A DNA stretch of 35,911 bases. Origin: Candidatus Pyrohabitans sp. JdFR-17. Its GTDB lineage: Archaea; Hydrothermarchaeota; Hydrothermarchaeia; Hydrothermarchaeales; BMS3B. The DNA lies in contig MTME02000096.1 of NCBI GenBank assembly GCA_002011115.2, positions 1-35,911 on the forward strand. Direction: 5' to 3'. The position numbers and the translations under genes were made by a program. Below the pieces are notes generated by a model. That model worked only from the letters and a program-made list of their open reading frames with translations, was not told the origin of the DNA and ran no database searches. Positions 16,153-31,914 of this stretch are shown here, in pieces. Each line of letters starts with the position of its first letter. Within the stretch, counting starts at the first letter, position 1.

Positions 16153-16362
16153 ATGAGAGAAATTTTAATTAGAGTTCCTGAGTGGATAGATGAAGATTTT
16201 ATTAAGCTGCAGATTGAGAGAATAATCAGCATAGAAAAAAGAAGAAGAGAATTAATAGAAGAAACTCTGAAAAAATTATCGATTGATGAGGAAGATTTAA
16301 AAGAGCTTGAGAGGGTGAGGGAGGATGTATGGAAGGAGGAGAAGAAAAGGTTGGGGCTGTAG
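16153..16362 (+). CDS. VapB-like antitoxin candidate
   Basis: The 69-residue protein starts at the ATG after an AGGTGAGG ribosome binding site (a GTG nine bases earlier is in frame but lies inside that site). It has a short strand (REILIRVPEW) followed by a long charged helical region with many Lys, Arg and Glu. This resembles the small partner proteins that precede PIN-domain toxins. It overlaps the following PIN gene by 34 bases, a typical toxin-antitoxin layout. Both genes are much more AT-rich than the cdh operon before them, which suggests transfer. I cannot place it in a named family. Confidence 0.65.
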   Translation: MREILIRVPEWIDEDFIKLQIERIISIEKRRRELIEETLKKLSIDEEDLKELERVREDVWKEEKKRLGL

Positions 16363-17294
16363 TTGTAGACACAAACATTATTATTTCTGCCTTAATCCCG
16401 CAAAATTCAAAACTCAGAGATATTATCCTTTCAGGTAAACTCAAACTCTACGCTCCAGAATATCTACTTAAAGAACTTGAGAAATACTGGGAATTAATTA
16501 TAGCCAAAGCTGAGAGAAGAGGTGTTAGCAGATCCAATCTCGAACTTGTTAAGGAAGAATTGCTTTCAAAAATTATATTTGAGCCTGAAAAATTATATCT
16601 TGCCAAAATCCATGAAGCATACGCCATCTGTAAAAATTTTGATGAAAAAGATACTCCATTTGTAGCGTTATCTTTGGTGTTGAGAATTCCAATACTCACA
16701 GGAGACAGAAGCCTTCTGAAAAATGCTGGAAATTATAGTGTAATGGGCTTGGAAGAATTATTTGAAATGCTTATGAGCCTCAGGAACAGGGTAAGCGTTG
16801 TGAGGGGCGACATAACTCAGGTAGAGGCAGACGCCATAGTGAATCCGTCCAACAGCTATGGCGTAATGGGCGGAGGCGTGGCTCTGGCAATCAAGCGCAG
16901 CGGCGGCGAGGAGATAGAGCGCGAGGCAGTGGCGAAAGCGCCTATTAACGTTGGCAGCGCCGCGGTAACGACGGCAGGCAAGCTTAAAGCAAAGGCGGTG
17001 ATTCACGCCAGCACAATGCAAAAGCCAGCGCAGAGAATAGGCGTAAACGAGGTTCGCCTGGCAACAAGGGCAGCGATGAGAGAAGCTTCAAAGCATGGCT
17101 TCAAAAGCATAGCTTTCCCGGGCATGGGCACAGGCGTTGGCGGCGTACCAAAAGACGAAGCAGCAAGGGCAATGCTTGAAGAGATTAAAGCGCACCTTGC
17201 CAGAGAAGCGCTGCCGGAGAGGGTGATTCTCGTTGCCTTCGATGAGGAGCTTTTCTCAGCCTTCCAGCGAGCGCTGGCTGAGGAGGGAGAATAG
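16329..17294 (+). CDS. PIN-domain nuclease fused in frame to a macro domain
   Basis: Residues 1 to about 145 form a PIN domain, with acidic positions Asp14 ('VVDTNIIISAL'), Glu49, Asp108 ('FDEKDTPFVALSL') and Asp126 ('ILTGDRSLL'). PIN toxins cut RNA. Residues from about 152 to 321 form a macro domain: 'GDITQVEADAIVNPSNS', 'VMGGGVALAIKRSGG' and 'FPGMGTGVGGVPKDEA', which in this fold bind or hydrolyse ADP-ribose. The two halves differ sharply in base composition: the PIN part is AT-rich, the macro part GC-rich like the chromosome. Met149 (16773) begins 'MSLRNRVSVVRGDI', which looks like the natural start of a stand-alone macro protein. The fusion may thus be recent, or translation may restart there. 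Confidence 0.8.
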   Translation: MEGGEEKVGAVVVDTNIIISALIPQNSKLRDIILSGKLKLYAPEYLLKELEKYWELIIAKAERRGVSRSNLELVKEELLSKIIFEPEKLYLAKIHEAYAICKNFDEKDTPFVALSLVLRIPILTGDRSLLKNAGNYSVMGLEELFEMLMSLRNRVSVVRGDITQVEADAIVNPSNSYGVMGGGVALAIKRSGGEEIEREAVAKAPINVGSAAVTTAGKLKAKAVIHASTMQKPAQRIGVNEVRLATRAAMREASKHGFKSIAFPGMGTGVGGVPKDEAARAMLEEIKAHLAREALPERVILVAFDEELFSAFQRALAEEGE

Positions 17295-19990: not shown

Positions 19991-20034
19991 TCATTATTTT
20001 TAAACTCGCTACTCTCTGACCTAATCATTAGCAT

Positions 20035-20118
20035 GCAGGGGTGGCCGAGCGGCTAAGGCGGCAGACTCAAGATCTGCTGGGCGTAGGCCCGTCGGGGGTT
20101 CGAATCCCTTCCCCTGCA
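20035..20118 (+). tRNA. tRNA-Leu (anticodon CAA)
   Basis: The 84-base sequence folds as a class II tRNA. The acceptor stem GCAGGGG pairs with CCCCTGC and the discriminator is A. The D arm contains GCCGAGCGGCTAAGGC. The anticodon stem GCAGA/TCTGC closes the loop CTCAAGA (anticodon CAA, reading TTG). The long variable arm has GGGC/GCCC, and the T loop is TTCGAAT. CCA is not encoded. A TTTTTAAA box about 30 bases upstream is its likely promoter. No intron is present. Confidence 0.95.
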
Positions 20119-20203
20119 TCATAACCAATCGTGAATATCCATCCTCACTTTTCCCGTGCTCCCCCGTAAATCGCATAGATACAAAAGAGTACCCACTTTT
20201 TTC

Positions 20204-20338
20204 ATGGCAAGCCACTACTGTTTATCCTGCGGTGCTCAGGTTGAGTCGGAAAGGTACCTCTGCGATACCTGCGAAGCCTCGCTTCTTGAGAACCTCTGCG
20301 AGGCGCAACGCTTCTACATTAATGGTGAGGCGGATTGA
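20204..20338 (+). CDS. Small zinc-ribbon protein
   Basis: A 44-residue reading frame starts at the ATG in 'ttcatggc' and carries two CxxC knuckles, 'YCLSCGAQ' and 'YLCDTCEA', that would bind one zinc ion. A short acidic helical tail follows. Its TGA stop overlaps the TTG start of the next gene (TTGA), so it appears to be the first gene of the polymerase operon. There is no clear ribosome binding site and the mRNA may be leaderless. In relatives this ribbon could be part of the RecA-like protein; that is a guess. Confidence 0.6.
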   Translation: MASHYCLSCGAQVESERYLCDTCEASLLENLCEAQRFYINGEAD

Positions 20339-21057
20339 GCTATCGCGACTTAACCTTCGCTGGGGTGTGCCCACCGCTCCATTCCTGGGGAGCAGAATCC
20401 CGCTGCACCACCGGCTCGCCCGTAATTGATTTCACGCTGGGCGGACTTGCCCCTCGAGGAGCTTACCTGATTGAGGCAGACGCAGGTCAGCTGGACGAGC
20501 TGGTGTACCGCATGCTGGTTGAGCTCACAGGCAGGCACGCGCTCACCTCCTTGGTCATGGAGTGCGGCTCCAGCTTCAACCCCTACCGCGTGGCTGAGAT
20601 TGCAAGGTCGCAGGGCTACAGCGCAGGCTTTGTGCTTGAGAACACCCTCATCGTGCGCCCCTTCACAGCCTACCAGCTCAACACCTTTTTCTCTGAGAGG
20701 CTGCCAGAGCTTGCGGGCAAGGCTGGTGCCGTGATCTTCTCCCATTTAACCCACCTCTTCCGCGGCAGAGACGCTCCCATAAGCGACGCGCTCATAATCC
20801 TCGACGAAGCGCTGCGAGAGCTTTCTACGCTGAAAAAGGAGAAGCTCCTCATAATCACCGCTCGCGTTGAAGATAAGGTGAAGAGGGTGGTGAGGGCAAA
20901 GCTCGCTGGCTTCGTGGACACCTGGCTGAGTTTTTCTCTTCGCAGGGGCTCAGCCAGGGTTAAGCTGCACAAGAGCCGCGAGCTTCCACTTGGAGAGGTG
21001 GAGATTCCCTTAACTCAGGCCAGCCAGCTGACTCTTGAAGAGTTCATCAGGAGGTGA
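20335..21057 (+). CDS. RecA/RadA-fold protein lacking a functional P-loop
   Basis: The segment 'GSPVIDFTLGGLAPRGAYLIEADAGQLDEL' aligns by eye with the start of the RadA/RadB ATPase core ('LD-LLGGGI-RG-...-GxxGxGKT'). Where the Walker A GKT should stand, this protein has EADAGQLD (47-54), with no Lys or Thr. The Walker B region reads 'AGAVIFSHLTHLF' with no Asp. The 240-residue protein is therefore predicted to keep the fold but not to hydrolyse ATP. It starts with TTG overlapping the previous stop and is followed by the small archaeal protein and PolB2. Inactivated RecA-like genes next to PolB2 genes have, as far as I recall, been noted in other archaea. Confidence 0.65.
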   Translation: MSYRDLTFAGVCPPLHSWGAESRCTTGSPVIDFTLGGLAPRGAYLIEADAGQLDELVYRMLVELTGRHALTSLVMECGSSFNPYRVAEIARSQGYSAGFVLENTLIVRPFTAYQLNTFFSERLPELAGKAGAVIFSHLTHLFRGRDAPISDALIILDEALRELSTLKKEKLLIITARVEDKVKRVVRAKLAGFVDTWLSFSLRRGSARVKLHKSRELPLGEVEIPLTQASQLTLEEFIRR

Positions 21058-21061
21058 CGCC

Positions 21062-21286
21062 TTGGGCAGGGTTGTGCCGAGCTATCGACAGTGGTTAGAG
21101 AGCGAGCTGAGAGAGCTCCAGAAGTTCCGCCGTGCCCTGAGGGGTAAAGACAGGAAAGCCTTCGATCGCGTAGTTGAGCTTGCACGCAAGCATGCGAGTG
21201 CCGCCAGCTACCTCGCCGGTGATGACCCGTACAGAGCTTTCATGCTTGCGGTGCTCATTGAGCTTGTGAAGGAGATGGAAAGATGA
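21062..21286 (+). CDS. Conserved small archaeal protein, possibly DUF8156
   Basis: The start is the TTG at 21062, because GAGGTGA lies five bases upstream. The 74-residue protein then begins MGRVVPSYRQWLESEL. The pattern 'LQKFRRALRGKDRKAFDRVVELARKHASAA' and a hydrophobic C-terminal helix match a small archaeal family that I recall as DUF8156, of unknown function. It is predicted to be all-helical. Its stop overlaps the polymerase ATG by four bases, so it is translated together with PolB2 and may be an accessory factor. Confidence 0.7.
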   Translation: MGRVVPSYRQWLESELRELQKFRRALRGKDRKAFDRVVELARKHASAASYLAGDDPYRAFMLAVLIELVKEMER

Positions 21287-23505
21287 GGGGCTGGGTGCTC
21301 GATGCATACCCGGCGAGCAGCACCACTATCAAGCTTTGGCTGAAGGACGAGAGCGGAAGGGTGCATAGCATAGAGGAAGAGTACTCGCCCTACTTCTACC
21401 TCATCGCGAGAGATGATGAAACCATTGAGATGCTTGCCTCTCTGGGCGGCGTCGCTCTCGAGGCTGAGACGCTGAGAGAACTCTCCGGAGAGAGGAAAGA
21501 AGTGCTGAAGGTAACTGTTCGCGGCTTCTCCAGATTCTTCGATGTTGCGGAGAAACTCCTCCATCATGGCAGGTTCAGGCACAACCTTCTGTACAACGTG
21601 GACATCCCCCTTACCACGCGCTTCTTTTTCGAGCGCGGAATACACCCGCTGGTGAAGCTTGAGGTTCGCGGACATGGATACACGCTGCTCGAGGAGCCCT
21701 ACTCGCTGAGCTACTCTCTGCCTGAGCTGAGGATTGCCACGCTTGATGTTATCCCGGAAGGTGGGATGTACACGAGGCACGCCGGGATCAAAGAGGTGAG
21801 ACTCAGCACAGATAACGAGAGATTCGTGCTCACAGGCAGCGAGGAGCATGTGCTTGAGGAGCTTTCCTCACTCATGGCTGAGCTTGACCCGGACATAATC
21901 CTCACCGAAAGAGGCGACTCAAAGCTGTTCCCCTACCTCAACACCCACGTGAAAGAGCTGGGGATAGAGGATTTTTACCTTGGCAGAGAGCCCGGCTACA
22001 ACGGCCTTGAGAAGGAGCGCTCGTACTTCAGCTATGGCAGGGTTTACTTCAAGCCCGTGCCCTACATGCTCAACGGCAGGGTGCACCTCTCCGCCAAAGA
22101 TTCCTTCCTTTTCAGAGAGGCGGATGTGGAAGGTATAGCCGAGCTTTCGCGGATAGCGTGCATCCCCCTGCAGCGCGTGGCGCGCGTAACGCCGGGGAAT
22201 GTGATAACCACGCTTCAGCTGAAATACTGCTATGAAAATAGGATACTCATCCCCTGGAAGAGGCAGCGCTGCGAGCGGGAGAAGAGCCTCCGCGATTTAA
22301 TACTCGCCGACCGCGGTGGATTCATCTTTGAGCCCCGCGCAGGGCTCCACGAAGGCGTAGTAGAGCTGGACTTCGCCTCAATGTTCCCCAACATAATGCG
22401 CAGGTACAACATCTCGCCCGAAACCATGCTCTGCGACTGTTGCAGCGACTCGCGAATACGCGTGCCGGAGCTGGGATACCACATATGCGAGCGACGTTCT
22501 GGGATGATCCCAGCGGTGGTGGGCATGCTCATCGACCGCCGCCAGGCTTATAAGCGCGCGCTGAAGCACAGGAGAAGTGAAGCTTTAGAAAGACGCCAGA
22601 AGGCGCTGAAATGGCTCCTCGTAACGAGCTTCGGCTACATGGGCTACCGCAACGCTCGCTTTGGGAGAATAGAGTGCCACGAGGCGATAACCGCCTTCGG
22701 CAGGGAAATTCTGCTCGAAGCGGCTGCTCTGGCTGAGCATCTCGGCTTTGAGGTGCTCCACGGTATCGTCGATTCCCTGTGGGTGAGGAAAGAGGCAGAG
22801 CTCTGGGAGTTCGAGGAGCTTGCAAATGCGCTGGAGCAGGAGTTCGGGATACCTGTGGATGTGGAGGGAAGGTACAGGTGGATAGTGTTTCTGCCCAGCA
22901 GAGAGAAGCGCGTAGGTGTGATGAACCGCTACTACGGCCTCTTCGAGAGCGGCGAACTCAAGGTTCGCGGAATAGAGCTGAGGAGGAGCGATTCGCCGGA
23001 GCTGGTCAAGAAGGCGCAGCAGGCGATGCTCTGCGAGCTTGCCAGGGCATCTAACGCTGAGGAGTTCTACGACAGAATACCCGAAGCAATAAACGCACTT
23101 AAAGGCTTTGTCCGGCGAACGCTTGCCGGTGATTTAAACATCGACGACCTTATGCTCACCATAAGGGTATCCCAACCTCTGGAGGAGTACAGGACGAGAA
23201 GCTTAACCTACGCGGCGCTGCGCCAGCTCAAGAGCGCTGGCATAAGCGTTCGTCCAGGCGAGCACGTGCGCTTCCTGGTGAGGGACAGCAAGGCGAGGAG
23301 GCTGGCGAGCAGAGTCGTGGTGGCAGAGTTTGCTGCAGAGGGTGAGAGCTACGACCGCGAGTACTATGCTGAGCTTTTGTTGCGCGCCGGTGAGAGTCTG
23401 CTTTTACCCTTTGGGTACGATAGGGATGTGCTCAGGGAGCTTATCCTTGGGCGGGGGAAGCAGAGGCTCATAGTGGAGTACGCCTCAGGGAGTGCGCTGC
23501 AATGA
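21283..23505 (+). CDS. Family B DNA polymerase, PolB2-like with degenerate active-site motifs
   Basis: The 740-residue protein has family B motif A 'ELDFASMFPNIMRRYNISPE' (Asp363) and motif B 'KWLLVTSFGYMGYRNARFG' (Lys443). In motif C, HGIVDS replaces the usual YGDTDS: the first Asp is Ile495, while Asp497 is kept. The exonuclease domain looks dead, with 'ATLDVIPEGG' in place of DIE and 'ERGDSKLFPYL' in place of the NGDNFDFPYL type. This fits the archaeal PolB2 group, once thought inactive; Sulfolobus Dpo2 has since been linked to lesion bypass. Cys384, 386, 387 and 402 form a possible metal site between motif A and the fingers. Both ends overlap neighbours by four bases. Confidence 0.85.
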   Translation: MRGWVLDAYPASSTTIKLWLKDESGRVHSIEEEYSPYFYLIARDDETIEMLASLGGVALEAETLRELSGERKEVLKVTVRGFSRFFDVAEKLLHHGRFRHNLLYNVDIPLTTRFFFERGIHPLVKLEVRGHGYTLLEEPYSLSYSLPELRIATLDVIPEGGMYTRHAGIKEVRLSTDNERFVLTGSEEHVLEELSSLMAELDPDIILTERGDSKLFPYLNTHVKELGIEDFYLGREPGYNGLEKERSYFSYGRVYFKPVPYMLNGRVHLSAKDSFLFREADVEGIAELSRIACIPLQRVARVTPGNVITTLQLKYCYENRILIPWKRQRCEREKSLRDLILADRGGFIFEPRAGLHEGVVELDFASMFPNIMRRYNISPETMLCDCCSDSRIRVPELGYHICERRSGMIPAVVGMLIDRRQAYKRALKHRRSEALERRQKALKWLLVTSFGYMGYRNARFGRIECHEAITAFGREILLEAAALAEHLGFEVLHGIVDSLWVRKEAELWEFEELANALEQEFGIPVDVEGRYRWIVFLPSREKRVGVMNRYYGLFESGELKVRGIELRRSDSPELVKKAQQAMLCELARASNAEEFYDRIPEAINALKGFVRRTLAGDLNIDDLMLTIRVSQPLEEYRTRSLTYAALRQLKSAGISVRPGEHVRFLVRDSKARRLASRVVVAEFAAEGESYDREYYAELLLRAGESLLLPFGYDRDVLRELILGRGKQRLIVEYASGSALQ

Positions 23506-23966
23506 TGTACAACCTGCTCGCAAGCAATAAGCTGAAGGGCGAGATAGGCGAGCTATTAGTCGCTCACATCCTCAGACGTAAGGGATTCATAATATACCGT
23601 CCGGCAAAACTGCTCACAAAGATTGATCAGCTCAGGCTCCCCAGAAGCTATGAGGTGGAGTTTCTTGAAAAGTACGGCAAGACCATGGACTTCTTCGCCA
23701 TATTCCCAGAGAGAGCTGCTATGGACCCGCGGGAAGTGGTATGCCAGCTTTTCTCAGGCGTCGGACTTAACAGATATCTGGAGAAGCCGCCCCACCAGGG
23801 ATTCGTGGTGGAGGTTAAGTCCGGAAGTGCTGAACTTTCATCAAGGCAGAGAAGGATGCTTGAGCTGGCGCAAAGGCTTGGCTTTAAGGCGCTTATCGCG
23901 AGGGTAATATTCACCGGAAACTACTGGGCAGACGTATCTTTTAGAGTGCTGGAGGGAGGAGATTGA
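23502..23966 (+). CDS. PD-(D/E)XK nuclease-fold protein, Holliday-resolvase-like
   Basis: The 154-residue protein shows the layout of a small PD-(D/E)XK nuclease. An N-terminal helix 'KLKGEIGELLVAHILRRKGF' has Glu14 and Glu17, followed by Asp63 in 'TMDFFAIFP'. The catalytic strand 'GFVVEVKSG' has Glu104 and Lys106, and a helix follows with 'SSRQRRMLELAQRLGFKALIARV'. This is the active-site pattern of archaeal Holliday junction resolvases and related repair nucleases. The ATG overlaps the polymerase stop, and its own stop overlaps the TTG of the exonuclease gene. A role in processing DNA next to PolB2 is inferred from this coupling. Confidence 0.75.
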   Translation: MMYNLLASNKLKGEIGELLVAHILRRKGFIIYRPAKLLTKIDQLRLPRSYEVEFLEKYGKTMDFFAIFPERAAMDPREVVCQLFSGVGLNRYLEKPPHQGFVVEVKSGSAELSSRQRRMLELAQRLGFKALIARVIFTGNYWADVSFRVLEGGD

Positions 23967-24733
23967 TACGCCACAGCTTCATATTCCTCAGTGGAATTGG
24001 AGAGATAAAAGAGAGGCGACTCTGGGAAAGCGGAATTCTAAGCTGGGGAGACTTTCTGGAAAGGGAGAGGATAAAGGGCATACCGGAGAGGAGGAAACCC
24101 CTGTTAGATAGGGAGATAGAAGAAGCTAAGCTCAACCTTGAGCTTCACCTACCCTATTTTTTCGCCTACCGCATGCCCAGGCGTGAGCACTGGCGTCTTT
24201 ATGAAGAGTTCAAGCACAGCATCTGCTTCCTGGATATCGAAACTACAGGGCTTAGCCCAAGTAGAAGCGAGGTAACTATGGTTGGGGTGTACGACGGCAG
24301 GGAGTATAAAGCCTTTATCAGAGGGATAAATCTAAACGAGGAGGTGCTCAAAAGGGAGTTGGAGAGATACTCCCTTCTCGTCACCTTCTACGGCTCGGGC
24401 TTCGACGTACCATTTCTTAAGGCATGCTTCCCGAGTATAAGCCTTGAGAAACCTCACATCGACCTGTGCTTCACCTCAAAAAGGCTTGGATTAAGAGGCG
24501 GGCTAAAGAAGATTGAGGAGATGCTGGGCTTAGAGAGAGAAGAAGAGGTTAAAAACATAGACGGGTTCGAGGCGGTGAGGCTCTGGAGAAGATGGGAAAT
24601 TTATGGCGATGAGGACGCGCTGGAAACTCTGGTGGAGTACAACCGCGCGGATGTGGTTAACTTAAAGCCTTTGGCTGAGTACGTTTATTCAAGACTTAGA
24701 GATGATGTGGTGAACATTTTCCGTGAGATATGA
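23963..24733 (+). CDS. DEDD-type 3'-5' exonuclease (YprB/RNase_H_2-like) with HhH-like N-terminus
   Basis: The exonuclease motifs are intact: ExoI 'FLDIETTG' (Asp91, Glu93), ExoII 'FYGSGFDVPFL' (Asp148) and ExoIII 'YNRADVVNL' (Asp230 with Tyr226, the DEDDy type). The N-terminal 'LSGIGEIKERRLWESGILSWGDFL' resembles a helix-hairpin-helix module that binds DNA. The start is TTG, overlapping the previous stop (TTGA), behind a strong GGAGGGAGGAG ribosome binding site. It is the last gene of the polymerase operon. Because PolB2 has lost its own proofreading site, this enzyme could supply 3'-5' exonuclease activity in trans; that is an inference. AT-rich accessory DNA begins just after its stop. Confidence 0.85.
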   Translation: MIRHSFIFLSGIGEIKERRLWESGILSWGDFLERERIKGIPERRKPLLDREIEEAKLNLELHLPYFFAYRMPRREHWRLYEEFKHSICFLDIETTGLSPSRSEVTMVGVYDGREYKAFIRGINLNEEVLKRELERYSLLVTFYGSGFDVPFLKACFPSISLEKPHIDLCFTSKRLGLRGGLKKIEEMLGLEREEEVKNIDGFEAVRLWRRWEIYGDEDALETLVEYNRADVVNLKPLAEYVYSRLRDDVVNIFREI

Positions 24734-24778: not shown

Positions 24779-25852
24779 CTAATAATTAAACTCACTTTTT
24801 ACAAGTTCCAATTTTTCAATGCTCTTTATTACCTCTGAGAGTTTTTCATGGGTTTGCTCAACTTCATAAGCATCCCAAAAGGAAAGAGCTCTGATAAAAT
24901 CATCTGGTAGCCCCTGCACCTCTTTTTTAATTTTCTCCAACTGTTCTTTATCAGAAACAGCAATTACCTTTTGCACTGTTGGATTACGTATCGCTTTTTG
25001 TAGATTAAGAACGAGGCTGTCAATTGAACCGCTTTTGTGCACTTCAAATACGTAGGTGACAACTCCCAAATTTGCTATTTTAGCCCGCCAAATTACATCA
25101 ACCCTCGCCCCATGGCCTATTGTTTTTTCAGTTTCAGCTTCAAAACCCAGGGAGAGCCCAATATCTCGAATAAAATCCCTTATTTCGTCATGGTCAAACA
25201 CATACTTTTTTGGTTCTTTTTCAATTTGCTTTAACTCTCCAACACGCCAGACCTCATACAAAAAATAATCGAGCATTAGCAGGTCGGCATCTTTAAATCC
25301 TGCCTCTCTCAGCTCTTCTGCAATATTCTTTACTACTTGGTTAAACTTAATGTAATCCCTACCAGAGATTTGATACTTCTTTAGTGGGAGGACATTCTCA
25401 AATCCAAGTATTTTCAGGGCTTTTCTTGCCTTGTCATTCCATATACCATACTCTTTGGGATTAAAGAAACATAGAATTTCCGTTATAGATGCGGGCCCCA
25501 ATCCTTTGACATTTCTAACAAATCTATCAAATCTTTTCTCAAAAGGCTCCTGCCCGTATAAAAGGTCATTTAATCTCTCTTTTATCTTATCCAGACCATT
25601 ATCGTTTATTATCTTTTGAATTAAATACTCCTTATTGGCCCACATACCAGCTGCCCATAGTTTAGAGATAATCTCTCCAAAATCGAATTCAGTCATAGAT
25701 TCTATCCTGTCCTTTCTTAGGGCTTCTGACAGGAACTTTTCCCTTGCTTTCCTCTCTTCTAAGTCCCTCTGATATTCTTCCGACTCAGAGTATTTCTTGA
25801 AAAGTTTTATATATTCTCTGATATTTTTTCTTTGTTCCTCATTAAGGCTCAT
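24779..25852 (-). CDS. HhH domain plus PD-(D/E)XK-like nuclease domain protein
   Basis: The 357-residue protein has a charged helical N-terminus. A segment 'NVKGLGPASITEILCFFNP' (about 114-132) follows, typical of a helix-hairpin-helix as in DNA glycosylases. The C-terminal domain contains 'GHGARVDVIWRAK' (Asp252) and 'VTYVFEVHKSGSIDSLVLNLQKA' (Glu270, with His272 and Lys273 where ExK would stand). That is the layout of a restriction-endonuclease fold with a shifted Lys. It opens the AT-rich island and its codon use is unlike the operon before it. A defence or repair role is likely, but the family is not recognised. A single minus-strand transcript with the genes further right is possible but not shown. 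Confidence 0.65.
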   Translation of the reverse strand: MSLNEEQRKNIREYIKLFKKYSESEEYQRDLEERKAREKFLSEALRKDRIESMTEFDFGEIISKLWAAGMWANKEYLIQKIINDNGLDKIKERLNDLLYGQEPFEKRFDRFVRNVKGLGPASITEILCFFNPKEYGIWNDKARKALKILGFENVLPLKKYQISGRDYIKFNQVVKNIAEELREAGFKDADLLMLDYFLYEVWRVGELKQIEKEPKKYVFDHDEIRDFIRDIGLSLGFEAETEKTIGHGARVDVIWRAKIANLGVVTYVFEVHKSGSIDSLVLNLQKAIRNPTVQKVIAVSDKEQLEKIKKEVQGLPDDFIRALSFWDAYEVEQTHEKLSEVIKSIEKLELVKSEFNY

Positions 25853-25888: not shown

Positions 25889-26328
25889 TTATGCTCTACT
25901 CGTAATTACCTGAAAATCCTCCTCCGGAATCTCCCTCATCGCCTTGCCCATGAGGTGCCCAGACCACCTCTTTTTGTTGGTGATGAACTTAAGCTCGGGT
26001 ATGAGCGATTTGAAGTCCACCGGCTTTGTGAAGATTTTCAGCGGCTTCAGCTTTATCCTGTAGGGGAAGCTCTCAGAACCCATTCCAGGTGGAGTTTTGA
26101 ATATTTTCCTTGCATCTCTGAATACCTCTGAAGCCACCTCGTAGGCTCCCACCACTCTTGGCTCTACTATCTCGTCCTTTCTCCTCTCCTGCTTGACGTA
26201 GATTAGCACCTTATCCCCCGGCTTACCCTTGCGATTGTGTTCTTGTGTCTCTCAGCCACTCCCCAGATGTTTTTCTCTTTAATTACTTTCCAGTTTTCCT
26301 CGGTGGTTATGCAGAGCCAGTGGGTCAT
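25889..26328 (-). pseudogene. EVE-domain protein, frameshifted copy
   Basis: This is a second copy of the intact EVE gene at 31,471. Reading from the ATG at 26328 gives [20 protein letters not shown] and so on through 'NTIARV'. There a single T missing from a TTT run (at about 26223; the intact copy has ttt) shifts the frame into a stop. The remaining 106 codons stay open to the end. EVE domains have the PUA/YTH-like fold and are thought to bind modified bases in DNA or RNA. Protein identity to the intact copy is very high, and many base differences are silent changes toward A or T. The frameshift is therefore recent, or a sequencing error. Confidence 0.8.
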
Positions 26329-28426: not shown

Positions 28427-29383
28427 TTAAAAAAGCTGCAGCTGTCTTCCCCTATAAATATCAATCAGCCTTCTAATTTCATCTTCCGTTATATTTTCTA
28501 CCTTATTTTTTACCCGCTCAACGGCACTTATCCAGCGTTGAGTACCTTTAGTTTTCCTTATTCCTACAATCATGTGGTAGTGAAAACCTCCAATTCCTCT
28601 AACTATTATGGGGATGGACTTTTCCCTAAATTCTTTCACGCGGTTAAAATAGACATCAAAAAGACATTCCGCGCAACCCTCGGGCGGAGGCGGACAATTC
28701 TTCCATTCATCGGTTCCAAAGAATTCATCCATGGTCTTTGATATCGACTCTTTGGTAGATTCCTTCGTCGAAGAGCTATGAACATTTCCCCAGATCCTTC
28801 CCACTCCTCCACACATATAGTTGATTACTATATCTCCATTCATCTCCAAAAATGTCTTAATTGTGCTCCACTTTAATTCTAAACCCTCCGGGTCTGCTAC
28901 AGCAAGAAAGTGAGTCCTTGGTAGTTCTCCAATAATCTTTTTTATTTTCTCTATGACTCTCAAACTATTGCAATCTCCCGGGATAACGCAAGCTTCTGGA
29001 ATTAAATTTTCCAAAATTTCTGCATTTTCAGAATCGCTTTCAACCAATATAATTTTATCAAACTCTTTACCATTTCTTGGAATCTTTTTTGCTAAAAGTG
29101 CGGATCCCATAACAATTTCTTCTACATCTCCAATTTTTATTTTGTTAAGTCCACAACCGGCAAATAGATCAACATAAACGATCCTGTTGAAGTTGCTCTT
29201 TGCAATTACTGTGTAAACATCAATATAGTATGCTAAAATTGACAGTTTAAGTAACGCCCAGTAGCCCGGGGTGTATGCCTTACCCGCCTTTTTGTAGAGT
29301 TCTCTTGCCTCATCTTTGTAGCCGGTTAATGTTTTTATTCTATCCCTCCACCATTCAAAGGGTGTTTTCTTTCTTGATGGCAT
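28427..29383 (-). CDS. tcmP: TcmP, three-Cys-motif partner protein
   Basis: The 318-residue protein has the features of the TcmP family: 'NRIVYVDLFAGCGLN' (about 66-80), then 'VMGSALLAKKIP', 'DKIILVESDSENAEIL', 'PGDCNSL', 'FLAVADPEGLELKWSTI' and 'DIVINYMCGG'. The fold is Rossmann-like and recalls a methyltransferase, but without a clear SAM-binding glycine motif. TcmP was named for its regular occurrence next to radical SAM proteins with a three-cysteine motif, and its activity is unknown. Here it lies 43 bases downstream of exactly such a gene. The C-terminus ends in 'IYRGRQLQLF'. Confidence 0.8.
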   Translation of the reverse strand: MPSRKKTPFEWWRDRIKTLTGYKDEARELYKKAGKAYTPGYWALLKLSILAYYIDVYTVIAKSNFNRIVYVDLFAGCGLNKIKIGDVEEIVMGSALLAKKIPRNGKEFDKIILVESDSENAEILENLIPEACVIPGDCNSLRVIEKIKKIIGELPRTHFLAVADPEGLELKWSTIKTFLEMNGDIVINYMCGGVGRIWGNVHSSSTKESTKESISKTMDEFFGTDEWKNCPPPPEGCAECLFDVYFNRVKEFREKSIPIIVRGIGGFHYHMIVGIRKTKGTQRWISAVERVKNKVENITEDEIRRLIDIYRGRQLQLF

Positions 29384-29426
29384 TTATTCCCCCCTCACCG
29401 TAAATTGCACTATCTTAGGTTGTACT

Positions 29427-30476
29427 TCATAGGACACAGTTACATTTAATGTCTCTCCAGCTCAGACCAAGCCTCTCCCACATCTCCATCGTTTCTTTGC
29501 AGAGCGCAACCCTGCTGTAATCATAATTCTCCTTCAGGTAATTGATAACTGTGGAGTACATTTCGTATCTGGTGTTGAAATCAATCTTCTTCCCCCAGTT
29601 GGACTTCTCAGAGAGATAAACTGTCCATGACCTGTCCTTGGCGTTATTGATTGTAGAAGCGAGTCCCCTCAACGAACCTATTGTTATTCTTTCAGGCTCG
29701 AAACTGGAGAATATGTCATCAATCAGCTGGAGGTAGTGCTTCCTCCAGTTTTCTACCGGAACCATTGGATCTATGCGCACCCGCGTGGCATAGCCAGCGT
29801 CATAAACCCTTTTAGCAGCCTTTATGCGTTCTTTCACTGGTGGAGCACCCCGCTCCCACCGCTCGGCAACAGGATAGGCATTCAGACTGAAACTCATTAT
29901 AATCCTGTCGGGCCTCTTCATCTCCAGGATATTCTTTACATATACGGACTTCGTCAGAAACAGAACTTTATGCTTCCTGTCTTTGTCATATTTATCAAGT
30001 ACGCCGACAATAAACCTGGAAAACGGAAGTTTTTTGCTTTCAGCTAATAAAGAATCAGAAAGCTCACCCGAGTTTAATATCTCCGGATCAGTACCGTTGT
30101 TTTTAACAAAGGCGGCGATGTGCTTTTCTATCAAGTTGAAGTCTTTGATATTTGGCTTGCCATTCTTCCACTCTGGGTGAAAGCGGTACGTGCCCTGCAG
30201 GTAGCACCATGCACAATCGAAGTAGCAGCCGTTCGCCCACTTCAGTTCAAGGAAGTGGGGGCAAACCACATCCTTTGGCTTTTCAGGTGGAGGAGTTTTT
30301 TCAAATCTGCAGATTATAATACCACTGCCAACCCTACTTATGCCGCTTTTTGCACGACCCCAAAAATCAACATAAGTTTTACGGTAAACTTTCGGCATAT
30401 CACCCTTTAGTTTAACATTGGTGCTTATAAGGCTTTCTTCGCCGTACAGCAAAGCCTGAATTGTCCTGTATCCCAT
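29427..30476 (-). CDS. Radical SAM protein, spore-photoproduct-lyase-like, partner of TcmP
   Basis: The CxxxCxxC radical SAM motif is 'GCYFDCAWCYLQGTYR' (Cys84, 88, 91). Further motifs 'VLFLTKSVYVKNIL', 'IIMSFSLNAYPVAERWERG', 'RIKAAKRVYDAGYATRVRIDPM' and 'SLRGLAST' follow the plan of spore photoproduct lyase and its relatives, which act on DNA. Most TcmP partners that I know of are the Gp37/Gp68 type (DUF5131); this one looks more like the SPL group. The 349-residue protein ends in CNCVL, two further cysteines that could bind an extra cluster or metal. It is the upstream gene of a two-gene operon with tcmP. Confidence 0.8.
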   Translation of the reverse strand: MGYRTIQALLYGEESLISTNVKLKGDMPKVYRKTYVDFWGRAKSGISRVGSGIIICRFEKTPPPEKPKDVVCPHFLELKWANGCYFDCAWCYLQGTYRFHPEWKNGKPNIKDFNLIEKHIAAFVKNNGTDPEILNSGELSDSLLAESKKLPFSRFIVGVLDKYDKDRKHKVLFLTKSVYVKNILEMKRPDRIIMSFSLNAYPVAERWERGAPPVKERIKAAKRVYDAGYATRVRIDPMVPVENWRKHYLQLIDDIFSSFEPERITIGSLRGLASTINNAKDRSWTVYLSEKSNWGKKIDFNTRYEMYSTVINYLKENYDYSRVALCKETMEMWERLGLSWRDIKCNCVL

Positions 30477-31470: not shown

Positions 31471-31914
31471 TCAAGCTTCTTTATTAATTATCAGCTCAAA
31501 GTCCTCCTCCGGAATCTCCCTCATCGCCTTGCCCATGAGGTGCCCGCTCCACCTCTTTTTGTTGGTTATAAACTTCAGCTCGGGTATCAGCGCCTTGAAG
31601 TCCACAGGCTTGGCGAAGATTTTAAGCGGCTTCAGCTTTATCCTGTAGGGGAAGCTCTCGGAGCCCATCCCGGGCGGAGTTTTGAATATCCTCCTCGCGT
31701 CCCTGAACACCTCCGAAGCCACCTCGTAGGCTGCCACCACCCTGGGCTCCACCACCTCGTCCTTCCTCCTCTCCTGCTTGACGTAGATGAGCACCTTATC
31801 GCCTGGCTTTACCCTCGCTATGGTGTTCTTATGCCTCTCAGCCACGCCCCAGATGTTTTTCTCCTTGATTACCTTCCAGTTTTCTTCCGTGGTTATGCAG
31901 AGCCAGTGGGTCAT
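31471..31914 (-). CDS. EVE-domain (PUA/YTH-like fold) protein
   Basis: The 147-residue protein begins [20 protein letters not shown] and continues '[26 protein letters not shown]', the start of an EVE domain. Later comes '[16 protein letters not shown]' and '[20 protein letters not shown]'. The fold is related to YTH and PUA and has a pocket for a modified base; EVE proteins are often found near restriction or defence genes. This copy is intact. A second copy about 5.6 kb to the left carries a single-base deletion. It starts 28 bases after the stop of the three-gene module to its right and could be cotranscribed with it. Confidence 0.88.

Follow-up and report, generated by a model that had tools for sequence, protein, structure and literature searches.

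Does an archaeal operon in which six genes abut or overlap around a family B polymerase encode one complete repair machine, or a known polymerase complex to which other genes have been joined? The initial annotation of the window, i.e., of the whole 35,911-nucleotide stretch of DNA analyzed here, had favored the former. ORF reading of the window found six plus-strand genes running head to tail from 20204 to 24733, tightly packed as that annotation had described, behind a tRNA gene:

20034..20120, plus strand: tRNA-Leu (CAA), upstream of the operon.
20204..20338, plus strand: ZnR, a 44-aa zinc-ribbon ORF with CxxC-x9-CxxC, which opens the operon 84 nt past tRNA-Leu.
20335..21057, plus strand: iRadA, 240 aa, a RadA/Rad51-like core that has neither Walker A nor the Asp of Walker B and whose C-terminus carries a PIP-like QLTLEEF.
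21062..21286, plus strand: PPB2 (arCOG07300), 74 aa, TTG start, N-terminus MGRVVPSYR.
21283..23505, plus strand: PolB2, 740 aa, motif A DFASMFP, motif C GIVDS, decayed exonuclease motifs.
23502..23966, plus strand: NUC, 154 aa, a PD-(D/E)XK-type nuclease with residues E17, D63, E104, and K106.
23963..24733, plus strand: DEDD, 256 aa, RNase_H_2, of a 3'-5' exonuclease family, with DIETT / FYGSGFD / YNRAD intact.

The first junction is a 4-nt overlap, the second a 4-nt gap, and the remaining three are 4-nt overlaps (TTGA/ATGA type). The tight packing first reported was correct, but the count of "five of six junctions" was not, as six genes have five junctions, all of which are tight. The packing and the combination of families are far beyond chance: for five of the six proteins, either the gene order or the sequence is conserved in relatives elsewhere. 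The TTG start of PPB2 is preceded by a strong ribosome site, GGAGGTGA, and is supported by homology (MGR..R9 N-terminus), as is the start of DEDD, whose relatives open with M-I-R/K-x-S-F and which also has a ribosome site ahead of it. The start of iRadA is uncertain: residues 1-18 of its model are of low confidence, and a GTG at 20365 is a possible start.

The core of this operon, consisting of iRadA, PPB2, and PolB2, is the known PolB2 translesion mutasome. Makarova et al. 2014 reported an operon of PolB2, inactive RadA, and arCOG07300 (PMC4104785). A PolB2-iRadA-(PPB2)3 mutasome, in which the PIP motif is often located on iRadA, was modeled by Timinskas et al. 2025 (PMC11791011). The initial annotation was thus right that PolB2 with an inactivated RecA-like neighbor is known from other archaea. 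We sampled the neighborhoods of 80 PolB2 loci in named archaeal and bacterial genomes and of 32 further loci from a spread of archaea, and found iRadA and PPB2 upstream of PolB2 in most of them; homologues of the iRadA in the window preceded PolB2 at about 60 loci. The same-direction adjacency of iRadA, PPB2, and PolB2 is present in the window, and the same order occurs in most of the 80 loci.

The proposed inactivated RecA fold was confirmed at the level of structure. While iRadA is nearly unseen by Pfam (Rad51, E 0.09), its AlphaFold model (pLDDT 87, 50-sequence alignment) matched RadA/Rad51 in Foldseek (5jec, E 3e-15, TM 0.72), as a RadA core without the N-terminal domain and without the ATPase residues. 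As read from the sequence, its P-loop is ADAGQLDE, which leaves it unable to bind ATP in the usual way; the Walker B Asp is replaced by Ser. The QLTLEEF at its C-terminus is a predicted PCNA-binding motif that lies at the same position in other iRadA proteins, many of which share the pattern QxxLxxF/Y at this end. PPB2 shares 53% identity with its counterpart in an ANME-1 genome, with G2 and R9 conserved and the MGRV arm present.

PolB2 matched Pfam DNA_pol_B (2.5e-31) as well as NCBIfam type B polymerase models, and it is 35-44% identical to PolB2s across archaea. The catalytic Asp of motif A is retained (DFASMFP), motif C reads GIVDS rather than DTDS so that its first Asp is gone, and an alignment to Pyrococcus PolB showed that the Exo residues are lost. 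The assignment as PolB2-like thus held, but the description of the polymerase as "impaired" was misleading and is dropped here, because the S. islandicus Dpo2/PolB2, which carries IID in place of DxD and has no exonuclease, is active and efficiently extends mismatched and lesion termini (PMC8764526). That enzyme is also damage-inducible and required for targeted mutagenesis (PMC7390963); damage-induced expression and TLS activity of PolB2 are known for Sulfolobales only (PMC7390963, PMC8764526). The D(K/R) motif, through which PolB2 contacts PPB2, is absent from the window, where the aligned position reads SA(K), and the PPB2 contact may therefore differ here. This motif is a reported conserved contact and not a defining catalytic feature, and it is inexact elsewhere too (DI in L038, DG in G016).

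Compared with the described PolB2 (Dpo2) mutasome (PMC11791011, PMC4104785), the window thus shares the iRadA-PPB2-PolB2 order, the inactive RadA core with its PIP-like motif, the MGR arm of PPB2, a DxD motif without its first Asp, and the decayed exonuclease. It differs in that D(K/R) is not conserved, in that no orc1/cdc6, SRAP, or DUF72 genes were seen adjoining the operon, and in its three added genes, for a zinc ribbon, a PD-(D/E)XK nuclease, and a DEDD exonuclease. The LexA-linked PolB2 operons of bacteria and the Pol V and ImuA-ImuB mutasomes likewise pair a translesion polymerase with an inactive partner of the RecA/RadA fold, and in bacterial PolB2 loci, too, the genes run iRadA-PPB2-PolB2. 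Unlike these systems, the window is archaeal, lacks LexA, and has a nuclease attached, and its polymerase belongs to a different family from Pol V and ImuB.

The gene that sets this operon apart is NUC. Its PD-(D/E)XK assignment was upheld: the residues E17, D63, and E104-V-K106 are all conserved in its one relative, in genome G016, and its model (pLDDT 72) consistently matched Hjc-type and EndA-like tRNA-splicing endonuclease folds in Foldseek; the probabilities reached 0.99, but the E-values were weak (0.03 and up). NUC thus resembles Hjc and EndA-type proteins in predicted fold and catalytic residue pattern, but a PDB sequence search returned no similarity to solved structures, and junction resolution is not implied. 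An identification as an Hjc Holliday junction resolvase was rejected, as neither Pfam nor the PDB sequence search gave a match to Hjc.

A two-sequence profile placed the NUC family in 2 of 394 archaeal genomes, the window and G016, in each case directly 3' of polB2. In G016 (JALUUU010000182.1, locus L040), which belongs to another family of the archaeal order that also includes the source of the window, NUC lies 8 bp behind polB2, and it is the sole NUC among the 80 other PolB2 loci. The two PolB2s are 43% identical and the two NUCs 41%, an equal divergence, and the PolB2s are sisters (SH-aLRT 95.5) in a tree from which the longest-branch rows were left out; with long branches included, the placement of the window and L040 was unresolved. 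The G016 locus reads iRadA-PolB2-NUC, without PPB2 and ZnR, and occupies a different genomic place; an orphan PPB2 gene lies on another contig (L246:8887-9123, plus strand), while NUC was kept at polB2. Of the 49 other genomes that carry PolB2, 48 had no NUC relative, and one gave a 32-residue match (E 4e-4). A viral origin of NUC was rejected, as the viral contigs of IMG/VR held no relative. Since NUC sits directly behind polB2 across such a large divergence, a joint function with the polymerase is most likely, for which the conserved linkage is good though two-genome evidence; with NUC in two genomes only, the functional link depends on one conserved adjacency. We found no earlier description of this linkage in the literature.

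Other nuclease-like genes occur beside polB2 as well. A short gene with PD-(D/E)XK motifs follows polB2 with a 4-nt overlap in L045 (Theionarchaea), another lies 3' of polB2 in L078 (Thermoplasmatales), with a weak Mrr_cat match and a SRAP-like gene after it, and a third is found two genes down from polB2 in L043. Homology of NUC to the genes in L045 and L078 was rejected by a negative profile comparison, and their PD-(D/E)XK status therefore relies on motifs only. No such neighbors were seen in the 32 broader PolB2 loci. Nuclease capture beside PolB2 would accordingly be uncommon and, judging from these motifs, possibly recurrent.

The first gene, ZnR, has the CxxC-x9-CxxC pattern of the zinc ribbon first proposed, but its DZR_2 match (E 2.4e-4) is below the Pfam cut-off and is the weakest domain call of the six. 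The 80 other PolB2 loci contained no ZnR homologue. In three Nitrososphaerota PolB2 operons (L114, L097, and L116), however, CxxC...CxxC modules are fused to the iRadA N-terminus, and the iRadA proteins of L114 and L097 match Pfam Rad51 above the cut-off. Such ZnR-like fusions make a split ZnR-iRadA unit plausible, and ZnR may be a split domain of iRadA. Timinskas et al. 2025 do not mention zinc-ribbon fusions of iRadA in their main text (PMC11791011).

Taken together, these data point to a locus that is probably a PolB2 translesion-synthesis mutasome to which a lineage-specific nuclease, NUC, has been added. The strongest competitor, which we nevertheless consider unlikely, is that the six genes together make up a single dedicated repair machine, in which NUC would cut, DEDD would trim or proofread in trans in place of PolB2's own dead proofreading domain, PolB2 would resynthesize, and iRadA, PPB2, and ZnR would load it. 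The tight junctions and 4-nt overlaps through the operon fit this idea, as do the intact catalytic motifs of DEDD next to a decayed PolB2 exonuclease. DEDD is a confident RNase_H_2 member (PF13482, E 6.5e-40, above the cut-off) with the D/E/D/D residues present (DEDDy), in line with the first assignment. Across archaea, DEDD and PolB2 are also found together more often than expected: of the 38 genomes with PolB2, 17 have DEDD, versus 47 of the 356 without it (P = 1e-5, 394 genomes, phylogeny not controlled) and, counted by family, in 11 of 19 versus 17 of 119 (P = 1e-4, phylogeny likewise not controlled). This co-occurrence argues for some functional relation, and a role of DEDD with PolB2 is possible.

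The neighborhoods speak against the six-gene machine, however. DEDD lies beside PolB2 in none of the 80 other loci (0/80), so that the placement seen in the window is peculiar to this genome. Its orthologues, found across archaea, are 52-66% identical within the same family and order (G005, G007, G012, G014, G016, and G018), where they stand alone among varied neighbors, including the sister genus, and a conserved neighbor relation with PolB2 was rejected on these grounds. In G016, which has NUC at PolB2, DEDD lies on a different contig and in a different context, and 47 of the 64 DEDD-bearing genomes have no PolB2. DEDD is thus a clear member of the free-standing RNase_H_2 (PF13482, YprB-like) exonucleases, differing from them in that it sits in a PolB2 operon, where its 5' end overlaps the 3' end of NUC. 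In three small genomes of one archaeal family (f27; loci L166, L169, and L170 in G080, G039, and G060), a DEDD gene is divergent from another B-family polymerase, at a distance of about 0.3-1.2 kb. The initial annotation had named unlinked nucleases as the result that would speak against its proposal, and the comparison split the two: NUC is tied to PolB2 (2/394, both 3' of polB2), whereas DEDD is not. The "complete repair machine" was thus overstated and is only partly supported.

A second alternative, which we regard as quite improbable, is that only iRadA, PPB2, and PolB2 function together, whereas rearrangement near the tRNA-Leu gene and a low-GC island placed ZnR, NUC, and DEDD beside them as mere bystanders. 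The surroundings give some reason for this. Congener G001 shares the stretch from Elp3 to tRNA-Leu at 87% DNA identity, but synteny breaks 5 nt past tRNA-Leu(CAA) (20120-20204 region), where an unrelated phosphoribosyltransferase gene comes next in G001. PolB2 is absent from all four sequenced congeners searched, a low-GC island (0.38; HNH, PIN, EVE, and TcmP-like genes) starts right 3' of DEDD, and at most PolB2 loci a nuclease is missing. Against this stands the adjacency of NUC and polB2, kept in another family at ~42% identity and in another genomic place, which drift would not preserve. Furthermore, the GC content of the operon is host-like (0.57 for PolB2, down to 0.48 in DEDD), and no att-type repeat of the tRNA-Leu 3' end was found in the window.

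Very unlikely, finally, is a cargo of an integrated mobile element or defense island with tRNA-Leu as attachment site: the operon does lie just 3' of the tRNA, HNH, PIN, EVE, and PADLOC PDC-M41A-like genes do follow downstream, and presence within the genus is patchy, but the window lacks the tRNA 3' end repeat (so that integration at tRNA-Leu was rejected), no integrase was noticed among the genes examined, GC resembles the host, viral contigs hold no NUC relative, and PADLOC was uninformative for the operon (its PolB2 match is an intein-type model and its DEDD match covers 25 residues), for which a defense system was likewise rejected.

Several features of the surrounding DNA were recorded in their own right. 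The low-GC island opens with a minus-strand gene at 24779-25852, convergent with DEDD, for an OGG-like/HhH protein (PF21790, E 5.5e-4, below the cut-off), whose C-terminal part includes a PD-(D/E)XK-like stretch (GARVDVIW...VFEVHKSG). A direct repeat (25894-26328 and 31479-31914; 300 + 106 nt, 86-90% identical, 5.6 kb apart) spans two EVE-domain genes, the first truncated, and encloses nucleotidyltransferase, PIN, HNH, TcmP-like, and radical SAM genes. The PADLOC PDC-M41A match at 28427-30476 (minus strand) lies beside a radical SAM / SPL-like gene (a three-Cys-motif partner pair by eye), and upstream of the operon, at 16329-17294 (plus strand), a PIN and a Macro domain are fused in a single protein.

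Returning to the mutasome with an added nuclease, homology to the S. islandicus complex and the published models suggest how it might operate. PolB2 would extend primers beyond lesions or mismatches, with iRadA docked onto it in the place of a RadA protomer and reaching PCNA via its C-terminal PIP-like QLTLEEF, while the MGR arm of a PPB2 trimer would insert between PolB2 and iRadA. NUC would be a small single-domain accessory endonuclease, translationally coupled to PolB2, that may process a DNA end or stalled-fork structure where the polymerase loads. ZnR is probably an iRadA module for DNA or protein binding that has become detached from the N-terminus, and DEDD would be an ordinary stand-alone exonuclease that came to lie at the operon end recently, possibly co-expressed but not a conserved part. 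Complex formation, lesion bypass in the source organism, and damage induction are expected by analogy with these relatives.

What was already known is the iRadA-PPB2-PolB2 core; what appears to be new is NUC directly behind polB2 in two distantly related members of the order. These findings touch on the question of how archaeal PolB2 receives its damaged substrate, for which assays so far have been of the polymerase only. That NUC stays coupled to PolB2 even where PPB2 has moved suggests that lesion bypass in archaea involves a step of end processing, and iRadA, PPB2, PolB2, and NUC form a defined four-protein set to model and purify, with the zinc-ribbon fusions of iRadA as a second testable architectural hint. 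We tentatively suggest that the PolB2 mutasomes of this lineage have a built-in NUC subunit and an iRadA zinc ribbon, and that genes with PD-(D/E)XK motifs were captured independently in L045, L078, and L043. If true, this would be a polymerase-nuclease translesion complex without previous description.
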